Shown here piece by piece: positions 23,077 to 50,932 of a stretch of 64,000 bases of DNA. The translations under genes and the position numbers were made by a program. Below the pieces are notes generated by a model. The model did no database searches and was not told the DNA's origin. It saw only the letters and a list, made by a program, of their open reading frames with translations. The DNA is from Halosolutus gelatinilyticus (GTDB lineage Archaea; Halobacteriota; Halobacteria; Halobacteriales; Natrialbaceae), in the NCBI RefSeq assembly GCF_023028105.1, contig NZ_CP095492.1, positions 310,001 to 374,000 on the forward strand, given 5' to 3'. Each line of letters begins with the position of its first letter. The first letter of the stretch is position 1.

Positions 23077-24000
23077 CTATGAACTCGAGTTCGTCTCGAG
23101 ATGCGTTCGTGCCGACCGGACGGCAGTAACGCCATCGCCCACCGCTGCGGCAACTTCCAGCGGACTATCCATCCGGACGTCTCCAGCTGCGTAGATCCCT
23201 TTGACGGACGTCTCCATATCCGGGCCGACGATCACGCTTCCGTCGTCGTCGAGGTCGACGGTGTCCTCGAGGAACGACGCGTTCGGAACGGCGCCGATGT
23301 TGACGTTTAATCCGCCGACTGACTCGGTGCTCGTCTCGTCACTTTCGAGGTCCCGCAGTTGTATCGAGGTGACGACGCCATCGTCGCCTTGGATTTCCGT
23401 TACCGACATACCGGTCAGAACCTTGATCTGCTGGTTAGTTCGAGCGTCGGCCGCAAGCGACTCGTCGGCGGTCAATTCTTCCGCTCGTTCGATTAACAGC
23501 ACCTCTGATGCGTGGTTCGTCAAGAATAGTGCGTCGATAATGGCGTGGTTTCGGCCTCCAATGATGGCGATTCGTTCGCCAGCGTAGAGCGGGCCGTCAC
23601 AGGTCGCACAGTCGAACACGCCCCGTCCCCAGTAGTCCGACTCTCCGGGAACGCCGAGTCGCTTCGGACTGCTTCCGGTCGCGATGACGACAGCCGAGGC
23701 CTGAAACTGCCCGTGTTGCGTGTGGAGTTCGTGCGGTGCTCCGGGGTCGACGTCTTCGACGGCGGCCATTTCGACGTCTGGATCGTACGTTTCAGCGGTA
23801 TTCACGAGCTGTGACCGGAGCTCCGTACCGGCTATTCCGTCCGGAAACCCTGGGTACGATTGTATCTCGTGTCGGTTCACGAGTTCTCCGCCTATCGACT
23901 CGTCCTCGAAGAACAACGTGTCGTACCCTCTCCGTCCCGCATAGGCGCCCGCGCTGAGCCCGGCCGGTCCGGTACCGATAATTGCGATATCGTAAACCAT
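23077..24000 (-). CDS. Thioredoxin reductase-like FAD/disulfide oxidoreductase
   Basis: A 307-residue two-domain flavoprotein. The FAD site is GTGPAG (9-14), the redox pair is Cys131-Cys134 in FDCATCDGP, and the second FAD motif is GIYAAGDVR near the end. The NADPH domain is unusual: in place of the usual GGGDSA and HRRDEFR (both conserved in form in the paralogue at 49772) it has GGRNHA (148-153) and IERAEEL. It probably does not use NADPH in the normal way; another donor such as ferredoxin or NADH is conceivable. It is convergent with the SAMP-like gene. Confidence 0.85.
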   Translation of the reverse strand: MVYDIAIIGTGPAGLSAGAYAGRRGYDTLFFEDESIGGELVNRHEIQSYPGFPDGIAGTELRSQLVNTAETYDPDVEMAAVEDVDPGAPHELHTQHGQFQASAVVIATGSSPKRLGVPGESDYWGRGVFDCATCDGPLYAGERIAIIGGRNHAIIDALFLTNHASEVLLIERAEELTADESLAADARTNQQIKVLTGMSVTEIQGDDGVVTSIQLRDLESDETSTESVGGLNVNIGAVPNASFLEDTVDLDDDGSVIVGPDMETSVKGIYAAGDVRMDSPLEVAAAVGDGVTAVRSARTHLETNSSS

Positions 24001-39676: not shown

Positions 39677-41362
39677 CTACTCGGCGACGCCCTCGCGCCC
39701 ACGGAGTGCCGTTCGGCGGATCTTCCCGGTCGAAGTACGAGGAAGCTTCTCGACGAATTCGAGTTCGCGCGGGTACTCGTACTTCGCCAGCCGGTCCTTG
39801 ACGTGTTGCTGGAGGTCCGAGCGTCGCTCCTCGGTCGGCTCGCGCCCCTCGCTCAGGACGACGAACGCCTTGGGAATCTCGCCGCGCGTCTCGTGGGGCA
39901 CACCGATGACGCCCGCCTCCGCCACGGCCTCGTGGGTGACCAGCGCCTCCTCGATCTCGTCCGGGCCGAACCGATAGCCGGAGCTGATGATCAGATCGTC
40001 GTCGCGGGCGTGAAATCGGAAGTAGCCGTCCTCGTCGATCGATACGAGGTCCTCAGAGAGGAGCCAGCCGTTTTGAACCTTCTCTGCCGTCTTTTCGGGC
40101 TTGTCGAGGTAGCCTACGAACAGCATCGGGTCGTCCTCGTACCGAACCGCAAGCTCACCGATTTTGCCAGGCGCCTCGATCGGCTCCCCTGTATCGAGGT
40201 CGAGGATCGCGACCTCGTGTCCGAGCGACGGAATCCCGAAGTAGCCGGTTCGGTGAGCGATACCGAAAGCGGGGTCGTCGCAGATGAGCCCTCCAATCTC
40301 GGTCGTTCCGTAGCCTTCAACGAACGCCGCGTTCTCGAAGGTGCTGGTCGCCCAGTCGATGATGCTCTCTCCCGCGGACTCCCCGCCGGTCGAGAACGAT
40401 CGGAGACTGCTCAGATCGTGTTTCTCCGCCGCGTCGTCCACTTGCATCATCTTGCGCACCGCGGTCGGCGGGAGATTCAGGTGCGTGATGCCGAACCGGT
40501 CGACGAGTTCGAACTCCTTCTCGGCCTCGAACTTCCCTCTCGGGGAGCCGACGACCGGTATCCCGTAGAAAAGCGGCGGGAGGACCATCTGATTCAGGGA
40601 CATAATCCACGACCACTCGGAGATCGTCCGCGCGACCTGATCGCCTCCCGTGTTGTGTCGCTGTAGACTGATGAACTGCGGAAGGAGGCCCAAGAGATGT
40701 CTGTGCGCGTGGACCGCGCCTTTGGGCTTGCCAGTCGTCCCGCTCGTGTAGATGATACAGGCGTCGTCCTCCGAGTCCGTCCGCCGCGTTTCGAAGTCCG
40801 CCGCGTAGCCCTCGATGACCTCCCAGAAGCTGACTTCGCCCTCTTTGTCGAACCCCTCGGTCGTCACGACTAGCTCGAGGGCGTCGAGATCGTCGCGAAT
40901 CTCTCGGAACGTTTCAATTGCATCTCGAGCGACCACGAACGCGGTGGATCCCGAGTTTGCGAGTCGATATCGCAGCCCGTCGGTGCCGAGGAGGACGCTA
41001 AGCGGGACGGTGACAGCACCGAGTTTGAATGCGGCGAGGTGGGCGACGAGCGACTGCAGGCACTGCGTGCCGTTAACGGCGACCCGGTCGCCCGGTCCGA
41101 TGTGCCGGTCCTCGAGAGCGTTCGCGAACCGATTCGCGTAGTGCCGGAGCTGGCGAAACGTGTACGCGCTCCGTCGCTCGCCTTCCGCGTCGATATATAG
41201 GGCAACGTCGTTCTTCTTCGCCTCGGCCCACCGGTCGCAGACGTAGTGAGCGATGTTGAACGTCTCGGGGATTTCCCACTCGAACCACTCCTCCGCCGCT
41301 TCGATCGTGTCGAACCCTTGCTCGTGAAAATAGTAGTTCTCGAGCCGGTCGGTCTCGTCCAT
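39677..41362 (-). CDS. AMP-forming acyl-CoA synthetase
   Basis: Adenylate-forming ligase of 561 residues activating a carboxylic acid with ATP and CoA. The P-loop is IIYTSGTTGKPKGAVHAHRH, then VEGYGTTEIGGLICDD, the hinge region WLLSEDLVSIDEDGYFRFHA, DDLIISSGYRFGPDEIEEAL and the catalytic Lys near the end in PRTSTGKIRRTALRGRE. Closest in style to acetyl/propionyl- or benzoate-CoA ligases of haloarchaea; the acid is not predictable. It lies 76 bases before the acyl-CoA dehydrogenase on the same strand. Confidence 0.92.
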   Translation of the reverse strand: MDETDRLENYYFHEQGFDTIEAAEEWFEWEIPETFNIAHYVCDRWAEAKKNDVALYIDAEGERRSAYTFRQLRHYANRFANALEDRHIGPGDRVAVNGTQCLQSLVAHLAAFKLGAVTVPLSVLLGTDGLRYRLANSGSTAFVVARDAIETFREIRDDLDALELVVTTEGFDKEGEVSFWEVIEGYAADFETRRTDSEDDACIIYTSGTTGKPKGAVHAHRHLLGLLPQFISLQRHNTGGDQVARTISEWSWIMSLNQMVLPPLFYGIPVVGSPRGKFEAEKEFELVDRFGITHLNLPPTAVRKMMQVDDAAEKHDLSSLRSFSTGGESAGESIIDWATSTFENAAFVEGYGTTEIGGLICDDPAFGIAHRTGYFGIPSLGHEVAILDLDTGEPIEAPGKIGELAVRYEDDPMLFVGYLDKPEKTAEKVQNGWLLSEDLVSIDEDGYFRFHARDDDLIISSGYRFGPDEIEEALVTHEAVAEAGVIGVPHETRGEIPKAFVVLSEGREPTEERRSDLQQHVKDRLAKYEYPRELEFVEKLPRTSTGKIRRTALRGREGVAE

Positions 41363-41472: not shown

Positions 41473-43407
41473 CTAGTCGAACTGCGGGTCGCGGTCGTGT
41501 GTGAACGCCTCGACGCCTTCAAGCATGTCGTCGGTCGTGGCCAGGAGGCCAAACGCTTGACTTTCCATCGCGATCGCCGTATTCAGACTCGCGTTCTGCC
41601 CCCCGTTGATGACCTGTTTCGCCGCTTTGAGTGCCGTTTGCGGGCCGTTCGCGATCGTCGTCACGAACTCGTTGACCGTCTCTTCGAACTCGTCGTCCGG
41701 TACCGCACGGTTCAGGATACCCCAGTCGGCCGCGCGTTCGGCGCTGATCTGCTCGCCCTTGAAGATGAGCTCCTTCGTGCGCGCTTCGCCCACGAGGCGA
41801 ACGAGCCGCTGAGTCCCGCCGCCACCTGGGATGAGCCCTAGATTGATCTCTGGACTCCCCAGTTTGGATCCCTTGGTCGCGATACGGATGTCGCAAGCGA
41901 GGATGATCTCGAAGCCACCACCCAGACAGAGCCCGTCGACCTTCGCGACTGTCGGTCGTTCGAACTCGTAGATCGTTTCGACGGCCTCGTCGACGTCCAT
42001 CAGGTCAGTCGGCTCGGCGATCGTGAAGCCGGTGATGTCGGCGCCGGCGCTAAACGCCCTGTCGCCGGCCCCCTCGAAGGTGACGCAGGCCACCTCGTTC
42101 GTGTCTACGGACTCGAGCAGCCGCTGGACCTCGTCGAGCATGTCCGTCGAGAGCGCGTTCAGGCGCTCCTCGCGATCAAAGGTTACCTCGAGTACGCCGT
42201 CATCAAGGGTGTGCGTGACGTAGTGATAGGGGCCGCCGTCGGCGTAATCGTAGAATCCTTTGCCGGCGTCTTCCCCAGTGTGACCGGCTTCAACGAGTTC
42301 GACGAGGTGATCGGCCGGCTCGTAGCGCGCCGCGCCGGTCTCCTCGTAGAGCGACTCGACTGTCTCGAGCGCCCGATCGAGGCCGAGCTTGTCGCCCGTC
42401 CGGCAGGTTCCCTCCGGGAGACCGCCGCCGAGACGCATCGCGATGTCGACGTCCTCGGGGTCCGCCACGTCCTGACCGACGAGACGCGCCGCCTCGTTCA
42501 CCATCCGCGCCTCGACGCGAAGCGTGTCGAAGCCGTCGCCGTCGCCGGGTTCGTAGTCGACGCCGCCGTCCTCGTAGTCGTAGAATCCCAATCCGGTCTT
42601 CCGGCCGAGTTCGTCGTTCTCGACGCGCGTTTCAACGCAATCGGGGAGGGATTTCTTCCACTGCTCGCGACTGTGTGCGAGCACGTCGAGGCCGCCGAAG
42701 TCAGCGAGTTCGAACGGTCCCATCGGGTAGCCCCGCCGGAACACCATGGCTGCGTCGGCCTGTCGGGCCTCTGCTTCACCCTCGTCGAACATCCACGCGG
42801 CCTCCTCCATGAAGGGAACCAACACGTTGTTCACGACGAACTCGGGGACGTCCTTTCGGACGAGAACGGACCTCTTGTCCAGCGACTCGACGAACTTGTC
42901 GGCCGCATCGACGACATCGTCGGCGGTCCGCTCCCCGGAGACGACTTCGACGAGGTCCATCTTCACCGGCGGGTTGAAAAAGTGGAGCCCGCAGAACCGC
43001 TCCGGGTTCTCGAGGGGTTCCGCGATGTCACTGACCCTGAGACTCGACGTGTTCGTCGCGAGGATCGCGTCGTCTTCGGTAGCGTCCTCGACATCTTCGA
43101 ATAGATTCCGCTTCATCCCGAGGTCCTCCGGGATAGCCTCGATGACGATGTCCGCGTCGCTGACAGCCTCGTCGAGGTCGGTCGTCGTGCGGACGCGCTC
43201 GAGGACGGCGACAGGATCGTCACCGAGTTGTCCCTTTTCGGTGAGTTTCTCGACGCTCCACTCGAGCTGTTCGTAGCCGTCTTCGACGTACGGTTCCTCG
43301 ATGTCACGGAGGGAGACCTCGTAACCTGCGATCGCCGATAGTTCGGCGATTCCGTGACCCATACTCCCCGCTCCAAGCACTGCAACGCGCTCTATCTCAC
43401 GTAGCAT
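41473..43407 (-). CDS. 3-hydroxyacyl-CoA dehydrogenase / enoyl-CoA hydratase fusion
   Basis: Bifunctional beta-oxidation protein of 644 residues. The order is dehydrogenase first, hydratase second, the archaeal arrangement and the reverse of bacterial FadB. N-terminal NAD site VAVLGAGSMGHGIAELSA, catalytic His-Glu region FCGLHFFNPPVKMDLVEVV, two C-terminal dimerisation repeats, then from about 390 the crotonase domain: FDREERLNALSTDML, GGGFEIILACDIRIATKGSK, and LGSPEINLGLIPGGGGTQRL with the catalytic Glu. ATG at 43407 (MLREIERVAVLG) is preferred over 43422. Confidence 0.94.
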   Translation of the reverse strand: MLREIERVAVLGAGSMGHGIAELSAIAGYEVSLRDIEEPYVEDGYEQLEWSVEKLTEKGQLGDDPVAVLERVRTTTDLDEAVSDADIVIEAIPEDLGMKRNLFEDVEDATEDDAILATNTSSLRVSDIAEPLENPERFCGLHFFNPPVKMDLVEVVSGERTADDVVDAADKFVESLDKRSVLVRKDVPEFVVNNVLVPFMEEAAWMFDEGEAEARQADAAMVFRRGYPMGPFELADFGGLDVLAHSREQWKKSLPDCVETRVENDELGRKTGLGFYDYEDGGVDYEPGDGDGFDTLRVEARMVNEAARLVGQDVADPEDVDIAMRLGGGLPEGTCRTGDKLGLDRALETVESLYEETGAARYEPADHLVELVEAGHTGEDAGKGFYDYADGGPYHYVTHTLDDGVLEVTFDREERLNALSTDMLDEVQRLLESVDTNEVACVTFEGAGDRAFSAGADITGFTIAEPTDLMDVDEAVETIYEFERPTVAKVDGLCLGGGFEIILACDIRIATKGSKLGSPEINLGLIPGGGGTQRLVRLVGEARTKELIFKGEQISAERAADWGILNRAVPDDEFEETVNEFVTTIANGPQTALKAAKQVINGGQNASLNTAIAMESQAFGLLATTDDMLEGVEAFTHDRDPQFD

Positions 43408-43581
43408 CGCGTATATGATCACGATAGCAGGTATTCAAACTGACGGTTAGCTGGAAACCGGCTGCTCGTGATACGCGAGCGGGTTCCGTCTTCCGTTGAT
43501 CGGCGGTACTACGCCGAGTAGCGCCTCACTCGTCACAGACGCGCTCAGACGGGAAGGTACGATCCCGACCGGAGATGCCGG

Positions 43582-45132
43582 TCATCCGTTCTTGATGAGA
43601 TCCGCGCCCTTCTCGGCGATAGCGATCGTCGGCGCGTTCGTGTTTCCTCTCGGAACCTGTGGCATCACCGACGCGTCGACGACTCGAAGACCGCCGATGC
43701 CGCGTAAACGTAGATCGCTGTCGACGACGGACAGTTTGTCGGTTCCCATCTTACACGTACAGGTCGGATGATACCCTGACACGGCGTTGTTTCGAATGTA
43801 CTCCGCGATTCCCTCGTCGCTTTGGACATCCTCACCGGGTTTTATCTCTCGTTCCCGGTACTCCGAGAGGGTGTCCGTCGTTCCGATGCGCCGTGCTCGA
43901 CGGATTCCCCTGATGAAGTCGTCGACGTCTTTTTCGTCGACCATGTATTCGGGATCGAGTTTGGGGTCGTCGTACGGGTCGTTCGATCGGAGCATAACGC
44001 GCCCGCGAGCGACCGGATTAAGCGGGAGGACCATAATCGAAAACCCTGCCTGCGGATTCTCTTCCGATCCAGGTGAAAGCCCGTACTGGAGATCTGGCGC
44101 GGGCAAAGAGGGATCGGACCGTTCAAACGCGCCAACCAGAACGCGGTCATATCGGGTTCCGCGTTGGTCACCGTCCTCCGCCTCGATTGGTTCCGGTGCC
44201 GAGTCGATCTGTTTTGAACTTTCGAAGACGACTGGCACGCGGAGGTGATCCTGCAAGTTGCGGCCGACGCCGGGGAGATCGCGTTTCACGTCGATGCCGT
44301 GCTCCTCGAGGTGTTCGGCTGGGCCGATACCCGAAAGCATGAGCAACTGTGGAGACTGAATCGCTCCTGCAGAGAGGATCACCTCACCGGTGTCGGTTAC
44401 CTTCGCCTCGTGTCTCTCATCGTTCTGCTCGTACACCACACCCGCTGCTCGATCGCCGTCAAACGTGATTCTGGTGACGTGCGCACTCGTCTCAACGTGG
44501 AGGTTCGATCGATCGAGAATCGGCTTAATGAACGCCGCCGCGGCGCTGTGACGGTGGCCGTCTTTGGTCGTGGTGTGATAGTAGCCGATTCCTTCCTGCT
44601 GCGCACCGTTGAAGTCCATGTTACCCTCCAATCCAGCTTCCGTCCCGGCCTCGACGAGCGTCTTCGAGAAGTCGCTAGGCATCCCACGGGACACGCTCAG
44701 CGGACCGTCGTTGCCGTGAAAGTCCGTGTCCCCGTCGGCGTTCAGGGTTTCGGACTTCTTGAAGTATGGAAGCAGGTCATCGTAACTCCAGTCGCTGTTC
44801 CCCATGTCAGCCCAATTGTCGTAATCGTAGGGGTGGCCGCGGACATACGCCATCCCGTTGATCACGCTCGAGCCGCCGAGCGCTTTACCCCGCGGCCAGT
44901 CGATGGTTCGACCGTTCATCCCCGGCTGAGGTTCCGTCTCGAACTTCCAATCGAGTTCGGAGCCCATGACATCCCACACTCGAGTAGGATCTTTCACCAT
45001 ATCCTTGTCTCCCGCTGGTTCGCCTGCTTCAAGCAGTAGTACGTCGACGTCTTCGGATTCGGTTAATCGGTGGGCAAGCACACACCCTGCACTCCCGCCA
45101 CCGACGATCAGGTAGTCGTACATGATAGACAT
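43582..45132 (-). CDS. GMC family FAD-dependent oxidoreductase (choline dehydrogenase-like)
   Basis: Glucose-methanol-choline oxidoreductase of 516 residues from ATG at 45132; ATG at 45123 is equally possible. FAD site YLIVGGGSAGCVLAHRL, GMC signature 1 in RGKALGGSSVINGMAYVRGH, signature 2 in GAIQSPQLLMLSGIGPAEHL, and the active-site His/Asn pair in SGYHPTCTCKMGTD and [18 protein letters not shown]. It oxidises an alcohol to an aldehyde. It is divergent from the UGSC trio and upstream of the beta-oxidation fusion on the same strand. A decayed relative lies at 31555-31845. Confidence 0.92.
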   Translation of the reverse strand: MSIMYDYLIVGGGSAGCVLAHRLTESEDVDVLLLEAGEPAGDKDMVKDPTRVWDVMGSELDWKFETEPQPGMNGRTIDWPRGKALGGSSVINGMAYVRGHPYDYDNWADMGNSDWSYDDLLPYFKKSETLNADGDTDFHGNDGPLSVSRGMPSDFSKTLVEAGTEAGLEGNMDFNGAQQEGIGYYHTTTKDGHRHSAAAAFIKPILDRSNLHVETSAHVTRITFDGDRAAGVVYEQNDERHEAKVTDTGEVILSAGAIQSPQLLMLSGIGPAEHLEEHGIDVKRDLPGVGRNLQDHLRVPVVFESSKQIDSAPEPIEAEDGDQRGTRYDRVLVGAFERSDPSLPAPDLQYGLSPGSEENPQAGFSIMVLPLNPVARGRVMLRSNDPYDDPKLDPEYMVDEKDVDDFIRGIRRARRIGTTDTLSEYREREIKPGEDVQSDEGIAEYIRNNAVSGYHPTCTCKMGTDKLSVVDSDLRLRGIGGLRVVDASVMPQVPRGNTNAPTIAIAEKGADLIKNG

Positions 45133-45279: not shown

Positions 45280-46362
45280 ATGTCCGAACACAAGCTACAC
45301 AACGACTCAACGAGCACAGTTTCTCGTTCGTTCTATCGAGAGGGGATGACGGACGGACTGCCCATTGTCCCACCAACAGATGAGCGCATCGAGGAGATGC
45401 TACGGGGTACCGATAATCCGCGCGATTACGTCCTCGGTCGACTCGGCAACGACGACACTCCGATCACTGTCGAACAGTTGGCGTCGAACGCGGTGATGGC
45501 GGGCTGTCTGCCGACGTACATGCCGGTACTGGAAGCCGGAGTGCGAGCGCTCGCCGATCCGCAATCCAACTCCATTCAGTTCTCCGTCAGTACGGGCGGC
45601 TGGGCGTACCAGTGGGTCCTGAACGGCCCCGTTCTCAGAGATCTCGGTATTACTCACGGTAGCGGGCCGTTCGGACGAAATGCCCGCGTGAACCGAGCAA
45701 CCGCAAGGGCGCTCGGTATCGCCTATCGAAATACGGCAAAGATCTATCCCGGGGAAAAAGACATGGGAGTGACGGGTAATCCGCTCAAATTCAGTTTGTT
45801 CCTCGCTGAGAACGAATCGGGTGGCCCGTGGAAACCATACCACGTCACAAACGGCTTCGACGAGGAAGACAGCACAATCACGCTTGCTGGCCCGAATAGT
45901 TTCATCCAGTGGAAATCCGAGCCGAACAGTCCCGAGGACGTTCTCCACGGAATGATCAAGAACACCCCGCCGTCAATGGTCGGCGGGGAACAGCAAGGTG
46001 GAGACTTTGATCAAACAATTTTCCACGTACTCAACCCAAAAGCCCTCGAGACGCTCGCTGACGCCAATCTCACCAAACAGGGAGTCAAAGAGTACATCTC
46101 CGAGAACTCCTATATCCCGATTGAGGAGTTCCAGAAGGGCGTTCTTTGGGATAATGCCTTGAACGACTACCACGGTAAAGTAGATAGTAGACAGGTCCCA
46201 CAGATCAGCGGGCCCGAATACGTGAAAGTCGTCGCAGGCGAGTACGGAGAGAGTCAAACAAACGTAGTCCTCGGTCCGTCCATTGGCGGACCAGTCACGA
46301 AGAAAATCCAGTTCCCGTCCGAGTGGGATACCCTGGCAACGGAGTACGCCGTCGAGGAGTAA
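45280..46362 (+). CDS. UGSC-associated protein, first paralogue (family not recognised)
   Basis: A 360-residue soluble protein without signal peptide or membrane segment. I cannot name its family. It is closely related to the gene at 47042: both have YREGMTDGLPIVPPTDERIE (or near variant), EQLASNAVMAGCLPTYMPVL, ALADPQSNSIQFSVSTG, GIAYRNTAKIYPGEKDMGV, YHVTNGFDEEDSTI and SIGGPVTKKI. Cys76, in MAGCLPTYMP, is the only cysteine in either protein and is conserved, so it is a candidate active-site residue. The gene starts a cluster with a UGSC-family protein between the two paralogues, suggesting subunits of one enzyme. The frame overlaps the 5' extension of the divergent GMC frame, but that extension is not coding. 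Confidence 0.85.
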   Translation: MSEHKLHNDSTSTVSRSFYREGMTDGLPIVPPTDERIEEMLRGTDNPRDYVLGRLGNDDTPITVEQLASNAVMAGCLPTYMPVLEAGVRALADPQSNSIQFSVSTGGWAYQWVLNGPVLRDLGITHGSGPFGRNARVNRATARALGIAYRNTAKIYPGEKDMGVTGNPLKFSLFLAENESGGPWKPYHVTNGFDEEDSTITLAGPNSFIQWKSEPNSPEDVLHGMIKNTPPSMVGGEQQGGDFDQTIFHVLNPKALETLADANLTKQGVKEYISENSYIPIEEFQKGVLWDNALNDYHGKVDSRQVPQISGPEYVKVVAGEYGESQTNVVLGPSIGGPVTKKIQFPSEWDTLATEYAVEE

Positions 46363-46416
46363 AACCGTCATCGGTGGTGATCTCGTGTCGTAAAAGCCGT
46401 TTCGACTTGTCACCAA

Positions 46417-46445
46417 AAACTATATGCCCCGTGCGAGTGTCACTC
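46417..46445 (+). promoter_or_regulatory. Internal promoter and palindrome before the UGSC gene
   Basis: AAACTATATG (46417-46426) is a TATA-like element about 28 bases before the ATG at 46452. GAGTGTCACTC (46435-46445), perfect 5-base arms around T, covers the expected start-site area. The UGSC gene may therefore also be transcribed on its own, leaderless. Confidence 0.45.
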
Positions 46446-46451
46446 ACCCAT

Positions 46452-47021
46452 ATGGGACTCATAACACCCTCTTCGACGGGTAATGATACCGAGCAGAAAC
46501 CGCTTGTCCCTCGAGTCGACTCCCTCGAAGGAAAACATATTGGACTGTACGACAACGGGAAGCCGGCTGCCGAACCGCTACTGACTGCCGTCCAGGAGAA
46601 ACTCGCAGAGCAGTATCCTGACGCGACGTTCGAATGGTACCACGTTGAACACCTAAACCAGATCAAAAACGATGACGAACAGAAGCGCGTCGTCGACTGG
46701 GCTGAAAACGTTGACACCGCCATCGGCGCGATCGGCGATTGCGGCTCTTGTACCAAGTTCCTCGCATGGGGTATCGAACTCGTTGAGGATGCCGGCACAC
46801 CAGGCGTGGGTCTAATCGACGAAGGGTTCGAGCTCGACTACCAGTCGAATGCCATCGAGCGCGGCCGTCCGCTTCGGTACAAGAAGACGCCCGTCCGATG
46901 CGAGACGACGGATCTCGATCGGGTTCGCGAGGAAGTAAGTGAAGAAGTTGTGGACGGAATCGTCGAGGAGGTCACGCGGTCGCTGAACGACAAAGAACGC
47001 GCAGAGCAAGCAGCGCAGTGA
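46452..47021 (+). CDS. UGSC-family (CGSC-containing) protein
   Basis: A 189-residue cytoplasmic protein with the family motif as DCGSCT (Cys97, Cys100); relatives in bacteria and metagenomes can carry selenocysteine at the first position (UGSC). A third cysteine is at 150. Other blocks: SLEGKHIGLYDNGKPAAEPL, FEWYHVEHLNQIKND and GTPGVGLIDEGFELDYQSNA. The function is, to my knowledge, not established; the motif suggests thiol/selenol redox chemistry. It sits between two paralogous genes, 89 bases after the first and 20 bases before the second. ATG at 46452 is preferred because the frame upstream is not protein-like and a TATA box precedes it. Confidence 0.82.
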   Translation: MGLITPSSTGNDTEQKPLVPRVDSLEGKHIGLYDNGKPAAEPLLTAVQEKLAEQYPDATFEWYHVEHLNQIKNDDEQKRVVDWAENVDTAIGAIGDCGSCTKFLAWGIELVEDAGTPGVGLIDEGFELDYQSNAIERGRPLRYKKTPVRCETTDLDRVREEVSEEVVDGIVEEVTRSLNDKERAEQAAQ

Positions 47022-47041
47022 ACCAGCCCTGAAGGGAGACA

Positions 47042-48124
47042 ATGTCCAATCAAACACAGCAAGAGCAGTCGTTAGAAGAGATCAACCAATCACTGTATCG
47101 AGAAGGGCTGACCGACGGCTTGCCCGTCATCCCCCCAACGGATGAGCGAGTGGAAGAAATGCTCCGGGGGACCGACAAACCCCGCGACCACGTTCTCGGA
47201 GAACTCGGAAACAACGAAAATCCCCTCACTATCGAGCAGTTGGCGTCGAACGCGGTGATGGCGGGTTGTCTGCCGACGTACATGCCGGTACTGGAAGCCG
47301 GAGTGCGAGCGCTCGCCGATCCGCAATCCAACTCCATCCAGTTCTCTGTCAGCACCGGGTCGTGGGCGTACCAGTGGATCGTCAACGGTCCCGTTCAAGA
47401 CAATCTCGACATCGAGAGCGGGTCCGGCGCGTTCGGCCCGAGCTTCCACGCCAACCAGACTATCCCACGCGCCCTTGGGATCGCTTACCGAAACACCGCG
47501 GAGATCTACCCCGGCGAAAAGGATATGGGCGTGATGGGGAATCCTGCCAAGTTTAGTTTCCTCGCCGGCGAAAACGAAGAGACGAGTCCATGGGAACCCT
47601 ACCACGTCACAAACGGCTTCGACGAGGAGGACAGTACGATTTCCCTCTCCGGTCCGAACAGTTGGGTCCAGTGGTTCCCGCACGAAAACAGTGCGGAAGA
47701 CGTCCTTCGCGGGATGATCGATAACACGCCGGAGTCGATGCGCGCTCGTACTGGCGAAGATTTGAACGCCACGATCACTCACTTCGTCAATCCCTACAAT
47801 GCGGAAGAACTCGAGAAGGCGGACCTGAGCAAGGAAGAGATCAAGGAATACATCGTCGAGAACTCCTACCGGAAGACCGACGGGACGTCCAACTCGATGC
47901 TCGAGACCGATAAGGTCGTTCCGCGACAGGTCAAGCAGTATGCCGACACCGAATCCATCAATATCGTAGCCGTCGGCGGGGCCGGTCGCGTCAACGCCAT
48001 TGCAGGAACATCAATTGGCGGACCAGTCACGAAGAAAATCGAGTTCCCGGATAACTGGGAGTCGCTGTTAGAGGAGTACTCGATCGAACGCGAATGGGTC
48101 CCCACCGAAGGATTCTACGATTAA
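47042..48124 (+). CDS. UGSC-associated protein, second paralogue (family not recognised)
   Basis: Also 360 residues, and paralogous to the protein at 45280 along most of its length, with the single cysteine Cys76 conserved. Differences concentrate in 130-150, 225-310 and the last 25 residues (EREWVPTEGFYD is absent from the first copy). AGGGAGA lies a few bases before the ATG, a reasonable ribosome-binding site, and the gene follows the UGSC gene by 20 bases. A tract of over 100 bases is almost identical in DNA between the two paralogues, in contrast to the rest (see findings). Likely partner subunit of the same complex; no reaction can be assigned. Confidence 0.85.
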   Translation: MSNQTQQEQSLEEINQSLYREGLTDGLPVIPPTDERVEEMLRGTDKPRDHVLGELGNNENPLTIEQLASNAVMAGCLPTYMPVLEAGVRALADPQSNSIQFSVSTGSWAYQWIVNGPVQDNLDIESGSGAFGPSFHANQTIPRALGIAYRNTAEIYPGEKDMGVMGNPAKFSFLAGENEETSPWEPYHVTNGFDEEDSTISLSGPNSWVQWFPHENSAEDVLRGMIDNTPESMRARTGEDLNATITHFVNPYNAEELEKADLSKEEIKEYIVENSYRKTDGTSNSMLETDKVVPRQVKQYADTESINIVAVGGAGRVNAIAGTSIGGPVTKKIEFPDNWESLLEEYSIEREWVPTEGFYD

Positions 48125-48574: not shown

Positions 48575-49606
48575 TCAGGGGCAGACAAGGATTTTGCGTT
48601 CCTTGCTATCCTCGCTGAGGAGTGTTTCGAATCCTCTGTCGACGACGTCTTCAAGGTCTATACGTGAAGTAACATATTGATCGGCGTCAAGTTTACCGGT
48701 CTCTAGCTGACGGAGTACCGCGTTGTACTCCTTGGTGACTCGTGGTCCCAACTGATGAGATGTCGATCCCGACACCGACCGCTGATGGCCAACAAGACTT
48801 TGTGGGGAGATCTCGACCTCGTCGCTGAACACGCCGATGACGGTAGTGTGGCCGTTTGCTCGCGTTGATTCGATGGCTTGATTGAGCGTTGTCTGATGGC
48901 CCACGGCTTCGAAGGCGACATCGACGCCGGTTCCAGTCTGTTCGCGGACGCGTTCGACTGGATCCTCGTCCGTCGGATCGATTACAACGTCTGCTCCGAA
49001 CTCCCTTGCGACCTCCCGACGTGACTCTTGAGGCTCCGAGACGTAGATCGGGCCCGCGCCCGCTGACTTCGCGAACTGGATCACACCCAACCCGATCGGC
49101 CCCGCGCCGACCACCATTGCACTGTCACCAATTCCTAACGGAGACTCGCGGACAGCATGTAGACCGACGCTGACCGGTTGGGCGATCGCCGCATCTTCCG
49201 GCGAGACGCCCTCCGGGAGCACGATCGCATTGTCGGCGTTCTCTACCGCCTTCTCCGCGTACCCACCCGGCCGCGCGGAGGTTGCATTCAGGTTCGTACA
49301 AAGATTGTAAAGCCCGTCTTCGCAATACCAACACTCCATACAGGGAGTGTGCGGACTGAGGACGACGTCTGTCCCCACCTCTATATCGACATCTTCACCG
49401 GTTTCGATAACCGTTCCGCCGACCTCGTGACCAAGCGTTACGGGTAGTTCCGCGTTTCCGTGCAACCCTTCTGTATAAAAGTGGAGATCGGATCCACAGA
49501 TCCCACACGCCGCTATATCCACCAGTATTTCACCGGCGTTAGGAGTCGGTTCGTCGATATTTTCAACTTTCATATCTTCTATACCGTAGAAGAGTGCAGC
49601 TCTCAT
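48575..49606 (-). CDS. Zinc-dependent alcohol dehydrogenase (MDR family)
   Basis: A 343-residue relative of the enzyme at 31922. Catalytic zinc in AACGICGSDLHFYTEG and GHEVGGTVIETGED, structural zinc in CMECWYCEDGLYNLC, nucleotide fold in VVGAGPIGLGVIQFAKSAG. The minus-strand start at 49606 is preceded by CAATAAATAATG (about 49621-49632), a likely TATA element giving a leaderless mRNA. It lies near the intact GMC oxidoreductase and UGSC trio and may oxidise the same class of alcohol. Confidence 0.9.
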   Translation of the reverse strand: MRAALFYGIEDMKVENIDEPTPNAGEILVDIAACGICGSDLHFYTEGLHGNAELPVTLGHEVGGTVIETGEDVDIEVGTDVVLSPHTPCMECWYCEDGLYNLCTNLNATSARPGGYAEKAVENADNAIVLPEGVSPEDAAIAQPVSVGLHAVRESPLGIGDSAMVVGAGPIGLGVIQFAKSAGAGPIYVSEPQESRREVAREFGADVVIDPTDEDPVERVREQTGTGVDVAFEAVGHQTTLNQAIESTRANGHTTVIGVFSDEVEISPQSLVGHQRSVSGSTSHQLGPRVTKEYNAVLRQLETGKLDADQYVTSRIDLEDVVDRGFETLLSEDSKERKILVCP

Positions 49607-49771: not shown

Positions 49772-50932
49772 ATGAGCGATCGCCGGAATACTCACAGTTT
49801 TCTCCGACAAGCCAGTGGCGACCGGTCATTCCGCGATATGATCGACTGCCGAGACATCGAGGCGAGAACAACCGCGGTCACGGATGGCGGACAGCAGGAC
49901 GCGAGGGAACACTGGAAACTCATCATCGCTGGCACCGGCATCGCCGGGCTGACGGCCGCGATCTATGCCGGCCGCGCGAACAACGATCCGTTAGTCATCG
50001 AAGGCGACGAACCGGGCGGTCAACTCACCCTCACCACGGACGTTGCTAATTACCCCGGCTTCCCGGACGGTATCAGCGGTCCTGAGTTAGTCAACAACAT
50101 GAAAGAGCAGGCCAAGCGGTTCGGAGCCGAACTGAAAAACGGCGTCATCGCCGGTATCGACGACTCAAGTCATCCGTTCCATATTGAGATGACTAACGGC
50201 GACGTCTATACCGCCGACGCCATCATCGCCGCCTCCGGCGCGAGCGCCCGCACGCTGGGCATCCCCGGCGAAGACGAACTCATGGGCTACGGCCTCTCGA
50301 CGTGTGCGACCTGTGACGGCGCGTTCTTCCGCGGCGAGGACATGCTCATCGTCGGCGGCGGCGACGCCGCCATGGAGGAAGCCACCTTCCTAACGAAGTT
50401 CGCCGACACCGTCTACATTGCCCATCGTCGCGACGAGTTCCGCGCCGAACAGTACTGGATCGACCGCGTCTACGAACAGGTCGAGAACGGCGATATTGAG
50501 ATCATGAAGAACACCGAACTGATCGAAATCCACGGCTCTCAGGAGGAGGGTGTCGACCGCGTCACCCTCGTCCACAACGAGCAGGGCCATCCGACCGATC
50601 GAATCGCCGATCCCGAAACCGAGGAGTTCGAGTTCGACGTCGGCGCCGTCTTCTTTGCAATCGGCCACACGCCGAATACGGAGTATCTTGAGGGGACCGG
50701 CGCCGAAATAGACGATGAGGGCTACCTCAAAATCAAAGGCGGCGACGGCGGCGATCAGACCGAAACCGCTGTCCCCGGCATCTTCGGCGCCGGCGATATC
50801 GTCGACTACTACTATCAACAGGCCGTCACCGCCGCCGGAATGGGCTCAAAAGCCGCACTCGACGCCGACAAATACCTCGAAGGCCAGGATCAGATCGCTG
50901 ACATGGATACTCTTGAGACGATGAATAACTAA
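49772..50932 (+). CDS. Thioredoxin reductase family protein
   Basis: A 386-residue flavoprotein with an N-terminal extension of about 48 residues before the FAD motif GTGIAG (54-59). The redox pair is Cys178-Cys181 in STCATCDGA. The NADPH site is canonical: VGGGDAAMEEATFL and HRRDEFRAEQ. The end has GIFGAGDIVDYYYQQAVTAA, with GD for FAD. It could reduce a thioredoxin or directly a thiol protein; the nearby CGSC protein is a conceivable partner, but this is only proximity. Contrast the degenerate paralogue at 23077. Confidence 0.9.
   Translation: MSDRRNTHSFLRQASGDRSFRDMIDCRDIEARTTAVTDGGQQDAREHWKLIIAGTGIAGLTAAIYAGRANNDPLVIEGDEPGGQLTLTTDVANYPGFPDGISGPELVNNMKEQAKRFGAELKNGVIAGIDDSSHPFHIEMTNGDVYTADAIIAASGASARTLGIPGEDELMGYGLSTCATCDGAFFRGEDMLIVGGGDAAMEEATFLTKFADTVYIAHRRDEFRAEQYWIDRVYEQVENGDIEIMKNTELIEIHGSQEEGVDRVTLVHNEQGHPTDRIADPETEEFEFDVGAVFFAIGHTPNTEYLEGTGAEIDDEGYLKIKGGDGGDQTETAVPGIFGAGDIVDYYYQQAVTAAGMGSKAALDADKYLEGQDQIADMDTLETMNN

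Follow-up and report, generated by a model that had tools for sequence, protein, structure and literature searches.

A UGSC-family protein and a partner protein of an undescribed family form one unit in haloarchaea and bacteria

In the glycine reductase system, electrons pass from NADPH through thioredoxin reductase, thioredoxin and GrdA to GrdB (PMC3091704). UGSC proteins are reported among the most abundant selenoproteins of aquatic metagenomes, and the passages of the 2008 Global Ocean Sampling paper considered here describe UGSC fused to a domain called 'Unknown_1', which has a conserved cysteine, and give no function for it (PMC2398784). Here we analyse a three-gene locus of Halosolutus gelatinilyticus in which a UGSC-family protein, U, is encoded between two copies, P1 and P2, of a large partner protein, P, of an undescribed family. 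The locus lies in a window of 64,000 nucleotides (contig NZ_CP095492.1, positions 310,001 to 374,000, forward strand), within which our coordinates are numbered. We find that U and P form one functional unit in haloarchaea and bacteria. 'Unknown_1' is probably the same domain as P, an identity that is unproven. The original prediction, made from the letters of the window, had put the locus forward as its best candidate for an undescribed system, with no established function; we found no published function in the limited literature searched, but the fusion of UGSC to a second domain had been noted in 2008.

The genes are arranged in the order P1-U-P2 on the + strand (45280-48124). P1 (45280-46362) and P2 (47042-48124) are each 360 residues long and each contain a single cysteine, Cys76, encoded at 45505-45507 and 47267-47269, respectively. 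U (46452-47021), 189 residues counted from its ATG, is predicted from matches to PF24696 and to a GrdB profile to be a small subunit with a GrdB-like redox domain in its Cys form, and its CGSC motif is found at 46740-46751 (codons TGC GGC TCT TGT). The open reading frames, their coordinates and the position of Cys76 are all as predicted for a CGSC protein flanked by two paralogous single-cysteine proteins of 360 residues.

The presence of U and that of P coincide exactly in the two groups of genomes compared. Among 292 haloarchaeal genomes both proteins are found in the same 16, and in the bacterial family that includes Xenophilus azovorans the same seven of 201 genomes have both. If the genomes were independent, the chance of identical sets would be 1/C(292,16), or ~1e-26, for the haloarchaea and ~4e-13 for the second group; owing to shared ancestry they are not fully independent, and the haloarchaeal set spans 12 genera. 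Across 90 loci on plasmids or genome contigs, U adjoins 101 of 115 P copies on the same strand and in either order, usually with 50-300 bases between the domain ends. Moreover, about 30 natural fusions hold both domains in one frame, mostly with U first, and this frame is usually broken only by the UGA of UGSC. The AlphaFold2 model of one such fusion (L091) has a predicted local distance difference test score (pLDDT) of 93.2 and a predicted template modelling score (pTM) of 0.93, scores that point to a confident mutual arrangement of the two domains. U and P are thus one functional unit, and the proposal that a UGSC protein and this partner family make up a system, which was to be given up if the two failed to co-occur in other genomes, is upheld by the identical genome sets, the adjacency and the fusions. 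A small CxxC module, NifU-like by our reading of its sequence (ACLDCIMP, ACSDCVMP or TCQECLLP; L073:8970-9215, L187:7576-7794 and L070:1479-1805), is fused to P in Bacillus dakarensis and to U in Arthrobacter, and is a gene of its own directly after P in a deltaproteobacterial metagenome-assembled genome (MAG).

U is a member of the Pfam UGSC family (PF24696) by the Pfam threshold, scoring 87 bits over residues 3-175 against a cut-off of 25, and falls below the threshold of the NCBIfam equivalog NF041046, with 65.7 bits where 125 are required; 28 of the 53 members of our U alignment (A3) match NF041046 at E ≤0.01. Its cysteines are Cys97, Cys100 and Cys150, and the CGSC motif, residues 97-100, lies between a strand and a helix. 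The first motif codon in the window is TGC and the gene has no in-frame UGA, so U is here a cysteine and not a selenocysteine (Sec) protein, as are all haloarchaeal U proteins found. Elsewhere the Sec form prevails: among 97 U sequences the first codon of the motif is TGA in 86, a Cys codon in eight and a codon for another residue in three, and the second Cys of UxxC is kept almost always. The genome-contig loci were found by patterns that include VMAGC and were ranked against a Sec-type Paracoccus query, which inflates the fractions of both Sec and Cys76 in that set; in the less biased Comamonadaceae set an in-frame UGA is reported for three of eight copies and Cys76 is absent from five of eight.

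The machinery for selenocysteine matches this distribution. Full-length SelA is present in all 14 Sec-type genomes tested, and Cys-type genomes give weak partial matches or none. Paracoccus ferrooxidans encodes selB a few kb from its U and P, and its annotation shows two short hypothetical genes in place of the UGSC gene, as would follow if the UGA had been read as a stop. U is therefore usually a selenoprotein among the bacteria sampled, in keeping with the original suggestion that its relatives can be selenoproteins. A second selA (G299:C16:90792-91892, in the region of L051) is encoded in Xenophilus azovorans ~1.5 kb away from U and P, which looks as though the selenocysteine machinery travelled with them.

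Comparison with GrdB indicates where the redox domain of U may come from. In single-sequence scans the NCBIfam models for GrdB, GrdF and GrdH, the selenoprotein B components of glycine, sarcosine and betaine reductase, match several U members, the best with an E of 2.1e-6. Aligned with hhalign to GrdB sequences from the same genomes, the UGSC family gives an E of 5.9e-10 with Sec and Cys in register, and the best of ~37 unrelated control alignments gives 4.4e-4. The UGSC motif also occurs in GrdB itself (LTSTUGSCTRCG in L120). The window's U has no PF07355 match at E 1 and lacks the N-terminal part of GrdB, being 189 residues long compared to ~430. Judged by these profiles, U shares one homologous domain with GrdB, the Sec domain, and is not a member of the GrdB family. 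In the model this domain is predicted to alternate beta strands and alpha helices, with the motif following a strand and opening a helix, and its weak fold matches are flavodoxin-, azoreductase- and receiver-like; the thioredoxin fold guessed in 2008 appears to be ruled out by this beta/alpha order and by the flavodoxin- and receiver-like matches. One deltaproteobacterial MAG (G303; loci L120, L130 and L133) has an unusual expansion of ~20 full-length GrdB proteins and 27 GrdE-family matches.

Neither P1 nor P2 matches a Pfam or NCBIfam model, and 46 diverse P relatives yielded no convincing Pfam family. Genome contigs yielded more than 570 confirmed relatives; the taxa among the 80 matches listed are Betaproteobacteria, Chloroflexi including SAR202, Rokubacteria, Binatia, Deltaproteobacteria, Poribacteria, Bacillota, haloarchaea and others. 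A viral or phage origin was rejected, as no pattern match in viral contigs proved to be a P relative. Several diverged U-P copies can be found in one genome, in different clusters, and single genomes may hold many. A Chloroflexi MAG (JACPQD01; loci L046-L050, L062, L063, L077 and L088) has well over ten, a large expansion of paralogues. In the numbering of P2, the near-invariant residues of the family are Asp25, Gly75, Gly116, Asn138, Arg143, Glu177 and Trp184. An AlphaFold2 model of P2 (pLDDT 87.8, pTM 0.89) found nothing significant in the PDB, the best match being cyanuric acid hydrolase with an E of 0.13 and a TM score of 0.21; on this comparison, which covered the PDB only, the predicted P fold may be new. 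P was also considered as a homologue of GrdE and of GrdB, and profile comparison was negative for both (E 0.34 for GrdE, which leaves P without a proprotein partner domain of the GrdE/PrdA type, PF09338).

In this lineage the thioredoxin reductase predicted near the trio is part of the locus. TrxB (49772-50932, +) is a thioredoxin-reductase-like flavoprotein with a CATC active site, and in the haloarchaeal clade of the window a TrxB-like gene with CxxC lies within 2.2 kb in nine of the ten U-P loci with complete surroundings; the genome of the window has only ~10 TrxB-like genes or fragments. The linked TrxB proteins come from at least two families that are not orthologous and share only ~32% identity, one found in the window and in Halostagnicola larsenii and another in the other genomes of the clade, so the link was formed or re-formed at least twice. 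In bacteria, trxB is found near P-U in Roseovarius and Variovorax, and in Arthrobacter sp. ERGS1:01 the genes trxB-trxA-P-U form one run, an operon. On this gene neighbourhood, TrxB is the probable electron donor of U-P in the lineage of the window. An 85%-identical copy of TrxB is encoded on another contig of the same genome, and a second, different TrxB-like gene is found in the window at 23077-24000.

The further neighbours of the trio are catabolic. A GMC oxidoreductase (43582-45126, -) is divergent from P1, and a Zn-dependent alcohol dehydrogenase (48575-49606, -) lies between P2 and TrxB; both are kept in several related loci and both had, like TrxB, been correctly placed near the trio. 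Beyond the GMC gene are a 3-hydroxyacyl-CoA dehydrogenase/enoyl-CoA hydratase fusion (41473-43422, -) and an AMP-binding acyl-CoA synthetase (39677-41362, -). Genes for GMC oxidoreductases and for alcohol, aldehyde and 3-hydroxyacyl-CoA dehydrogenases recur in the related haloarchaeal loci, and we infer that the U-P genes of the window belong to a cluster for alcohol/acyl-CoA degradation. In the bacterial-type loci, substrate-binding proteins of tripartite-tricarboxylate transporters are found in at least 28 of 90, and acyl-CoA dehydrogenases, CoA-transferases and MmgE/PrpD proteins are also abundant. The names of these bacterial neighbours come partly from our own reading of the sequences and partly from annotated records. 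Simple gene calling often took the wrong strand in the GC-rich bacterial loci, so that these neighbour counts are lower bounds; for this reason the search for TrxB used all six frames. Such a setting suggests the breakdown of carboxylates or related compounds, with a substrate that varies by copy.

Taking these observations together, we give somewhat better than even chances to the reading that U-P is a GrdB-like selenol/thiol reductive enzyme in which P binds the substrate and which acts inside catabolic clusters. One enzyme would then consist of U and P, served by a dedicated thioredoxin reductase. U would supply a flavodoxin-like alpha/beta domain in which CGSC or UGSC opens a helix, and P would be the substrate-binding and catalytic partner, in which Asp25, Asn138, Arg143, Glu177 and Trp184 hardly vary and Cys76 is usual. 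NADPH would reduce TrxB, and TrxB, directly or via thioredoxin, would reduce the CGSC/UGSC pair. The thiolate or selenolate could then attack a small substrate of carboxylate or carbonyl type bound to P, cleaving a polarised bond reductively and leaving a disulfide or selenenylsulfide to be reduced again. Different U-P copies would serve different catabolic pathways. For U-P we infer the direction of the chemistry, the type of bond, the substrate and the geometry of the complex.

Several observations weigh against this reductive scheme. TrxB is absent from the eight loci of a second haloarchaeal clade, and a TrxB neighbour is rare at Sec-type loci (two of ~82). The P profile shows no relation to those of GrdE and GrdB, so the mechanism of glycine reductase cannot be transferred whole. 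Of 151 distinct P sequences, 146 have Cys76, a fraction subject to the inflation described above, and five distinct Comamonadaceae proteins have Ala in its place; strict invariance of Cys76 is accordingly rejected, and the prediction that both paralogues carry one Cys at position 76 holds in the window and fails as a rule for the family. The Comamonadaceae proteins at L157, L158, L160 and L161 are a fused subfamily with this replacement, in one of which (L158) CSTC replaces UGSC. Finally, MGTS replaces UGSC in the fused U-P proteins of Sporomusa and Vibrio, and QG-V does so in L046; in these fusions (L035:6323-8047, L037:6374-8059 and L046:5006-6724) the redox pair is missing and P keeps its Cys. 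The fold is therefore usable without the redox pair, and part of the family, to judge from these sequences, may not do thiol redox chemistry.

These same members lend some support to a non-redox enzyme, a Cys/Sec-dependent lyase, hydrolase or isomerase in which the Asp, Asn, Arg and Glu residues of P would be catalytic and the CGSC of U would be a nucleophile or a structural element that needs its reduced state. Two of the proteins without Cys or Sec, the MGTS fusions of Sporomusa and Vibrio, adjoin genes for aconitase X, a dehydratase family, Cys76 is dispensable in one subgroup, and the polar residues of P are better conserved than Cys76. We nevertheless consider such an enzyme unlikely, given that the costly Sec is retained in most of the bacterial copies sampled, that the second Cys of UxxC is nearly always retained, and that TrxB is strongly associated with the Cys-type loci. 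Less probable again is a thiol/selenol peroxidase or a repair enzyme for oxidative damage, acting on peroxide or sulfoxide with TrxB as reductant and P presenting the damaged substrate. The UxxC/CxxC motif and the TrxB and TrxA neighbours would suit this function, and a peroxidase activity of GrdB has been reported, according to the title of a reference in PMC3091704, but U-P lies among genes for transporters and catabolic enzymes, not among stress genes, several diverged copies can be found in different clusters of one genome, and U-P occurs patchily, in 16 of 292 haloarchaea. Least probable is a thioredoxin-like role for U, as redox chaperone or carrier serving P, with P an ordinary enzyme that needs its Cys reduced or metallated: the 2008 guess of a thioredoxin-like fold for UGSC proteins, in the part of that paper considered here (PMC2398784), and the CxxC module at three loci speak for it, but the alternating beta/alpha order of the model, with its flavodoxin- and receiver-like matches, is not that of thioredoxin, and a fused and seemingly obligate pair would be unusual for a general carrier.

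The twin large proteins are a secondary feature of the system. P1 and P2 share 61% protein identity, and residues 76-98 are encoded by 23 consecutive identical codons; their DNA identity is 92-98% over residues 61-100 and 67% overall. The near-identical tract (45460-45579 and 47222-47341, +) makes the region around Cys76 probably in part a product of a gene-conversion-like event. A comparable tract of high identity in P is found in H. larsenii and in genome G222, and a weaker one in G272. In the P tree, P1 and P2 fall in sister groups within one haloarchaeal clade, in which the branches that split off earlier have a single P, and a second clade (Halorientalis, Halalkalicoccus) has its own P-U-P arrangement from a separate duplication. 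The twin is thus a lineage-specific elaboration that arose twice in haloarchaea by duplication, and in most relatives each U has a single P. It was rejected as the key feature of the system on this basis; of the predicted redox enzyme with a small thiol/selenol subunit and two large subunits, the U-P unit stands and the pair of large subunits as a defining trait does not. P1 and P2 would be specialised copies, perhaps forming a heteromer or perhaps serving two substrate specificities.

UGSC proteins hereby gain a seemingly obligate partner, a likely ancestry in GrdB and a likely electron donor in TrxB. Public genomes encode well over 500 members of the P family, for which Pfam has no entry and the PDB no fold that can be recognised, and the haloarchaeal Cys-only form is a tractable one that can be expressed without selenium machinery. 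A single crystal structure or knock-out of P could open up a class of catabolic enzymes that includes the expansions in SAR202-like Chloroflexi. Tentatively, and with somewhat less than even confidence, we propose that U-P is a new class of selenol/thiol reductase, combining a GrdB-type Sec domain with a substrate subunit of novel fold, found in bacteria and haloarchaea as many paralogues with different substrates, and working in aerobic catabolism and not in anaerobic Stickland fermentation.

Among known systems, U-P resembles D-proline reductase (PrdA/PrdB) and fluoroacetate reductase (FarB/FarE, PMC10838667), in which a small or GrdB-type Sec subunit and a substrate-binding partner carry out a reductive cleavage. 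The partners in those enzymes are proproteins of the GrdE/PrdA type, whereas P belongs to another family and has no known pyruvoyl site. The proposed supply of electrons by thioredoxin reductase would follow the same principle as in glycine reductase, and the Sec-containing C-terminal domain of GrdB (PF07355) resembles U, with Sec aligned to Sec. U-P differs from the GrdB/GrdE system in that U has no GrdB N-terminal part and P is not GrdE. Unlike GrdB, it is found in haloarchaea and in many bacteria beyond the classical amino-acid fermenters, and its U may have Cys in place of Sec or no Cys at all. The considered passages of PMC2398784 on UGSC and 'Unknown_1' give no function, family-wide linkage, haloarchaeal form or link to GrdB or TrxB. 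The UGSC family (PF24696/NF041046), with which U shares its motif and the occurrence of Sec in relatives while scoring below the NF041046 cut-off, was previously without a known function, fold or stable partner, and is linked here with P, TrxB and GrdB.

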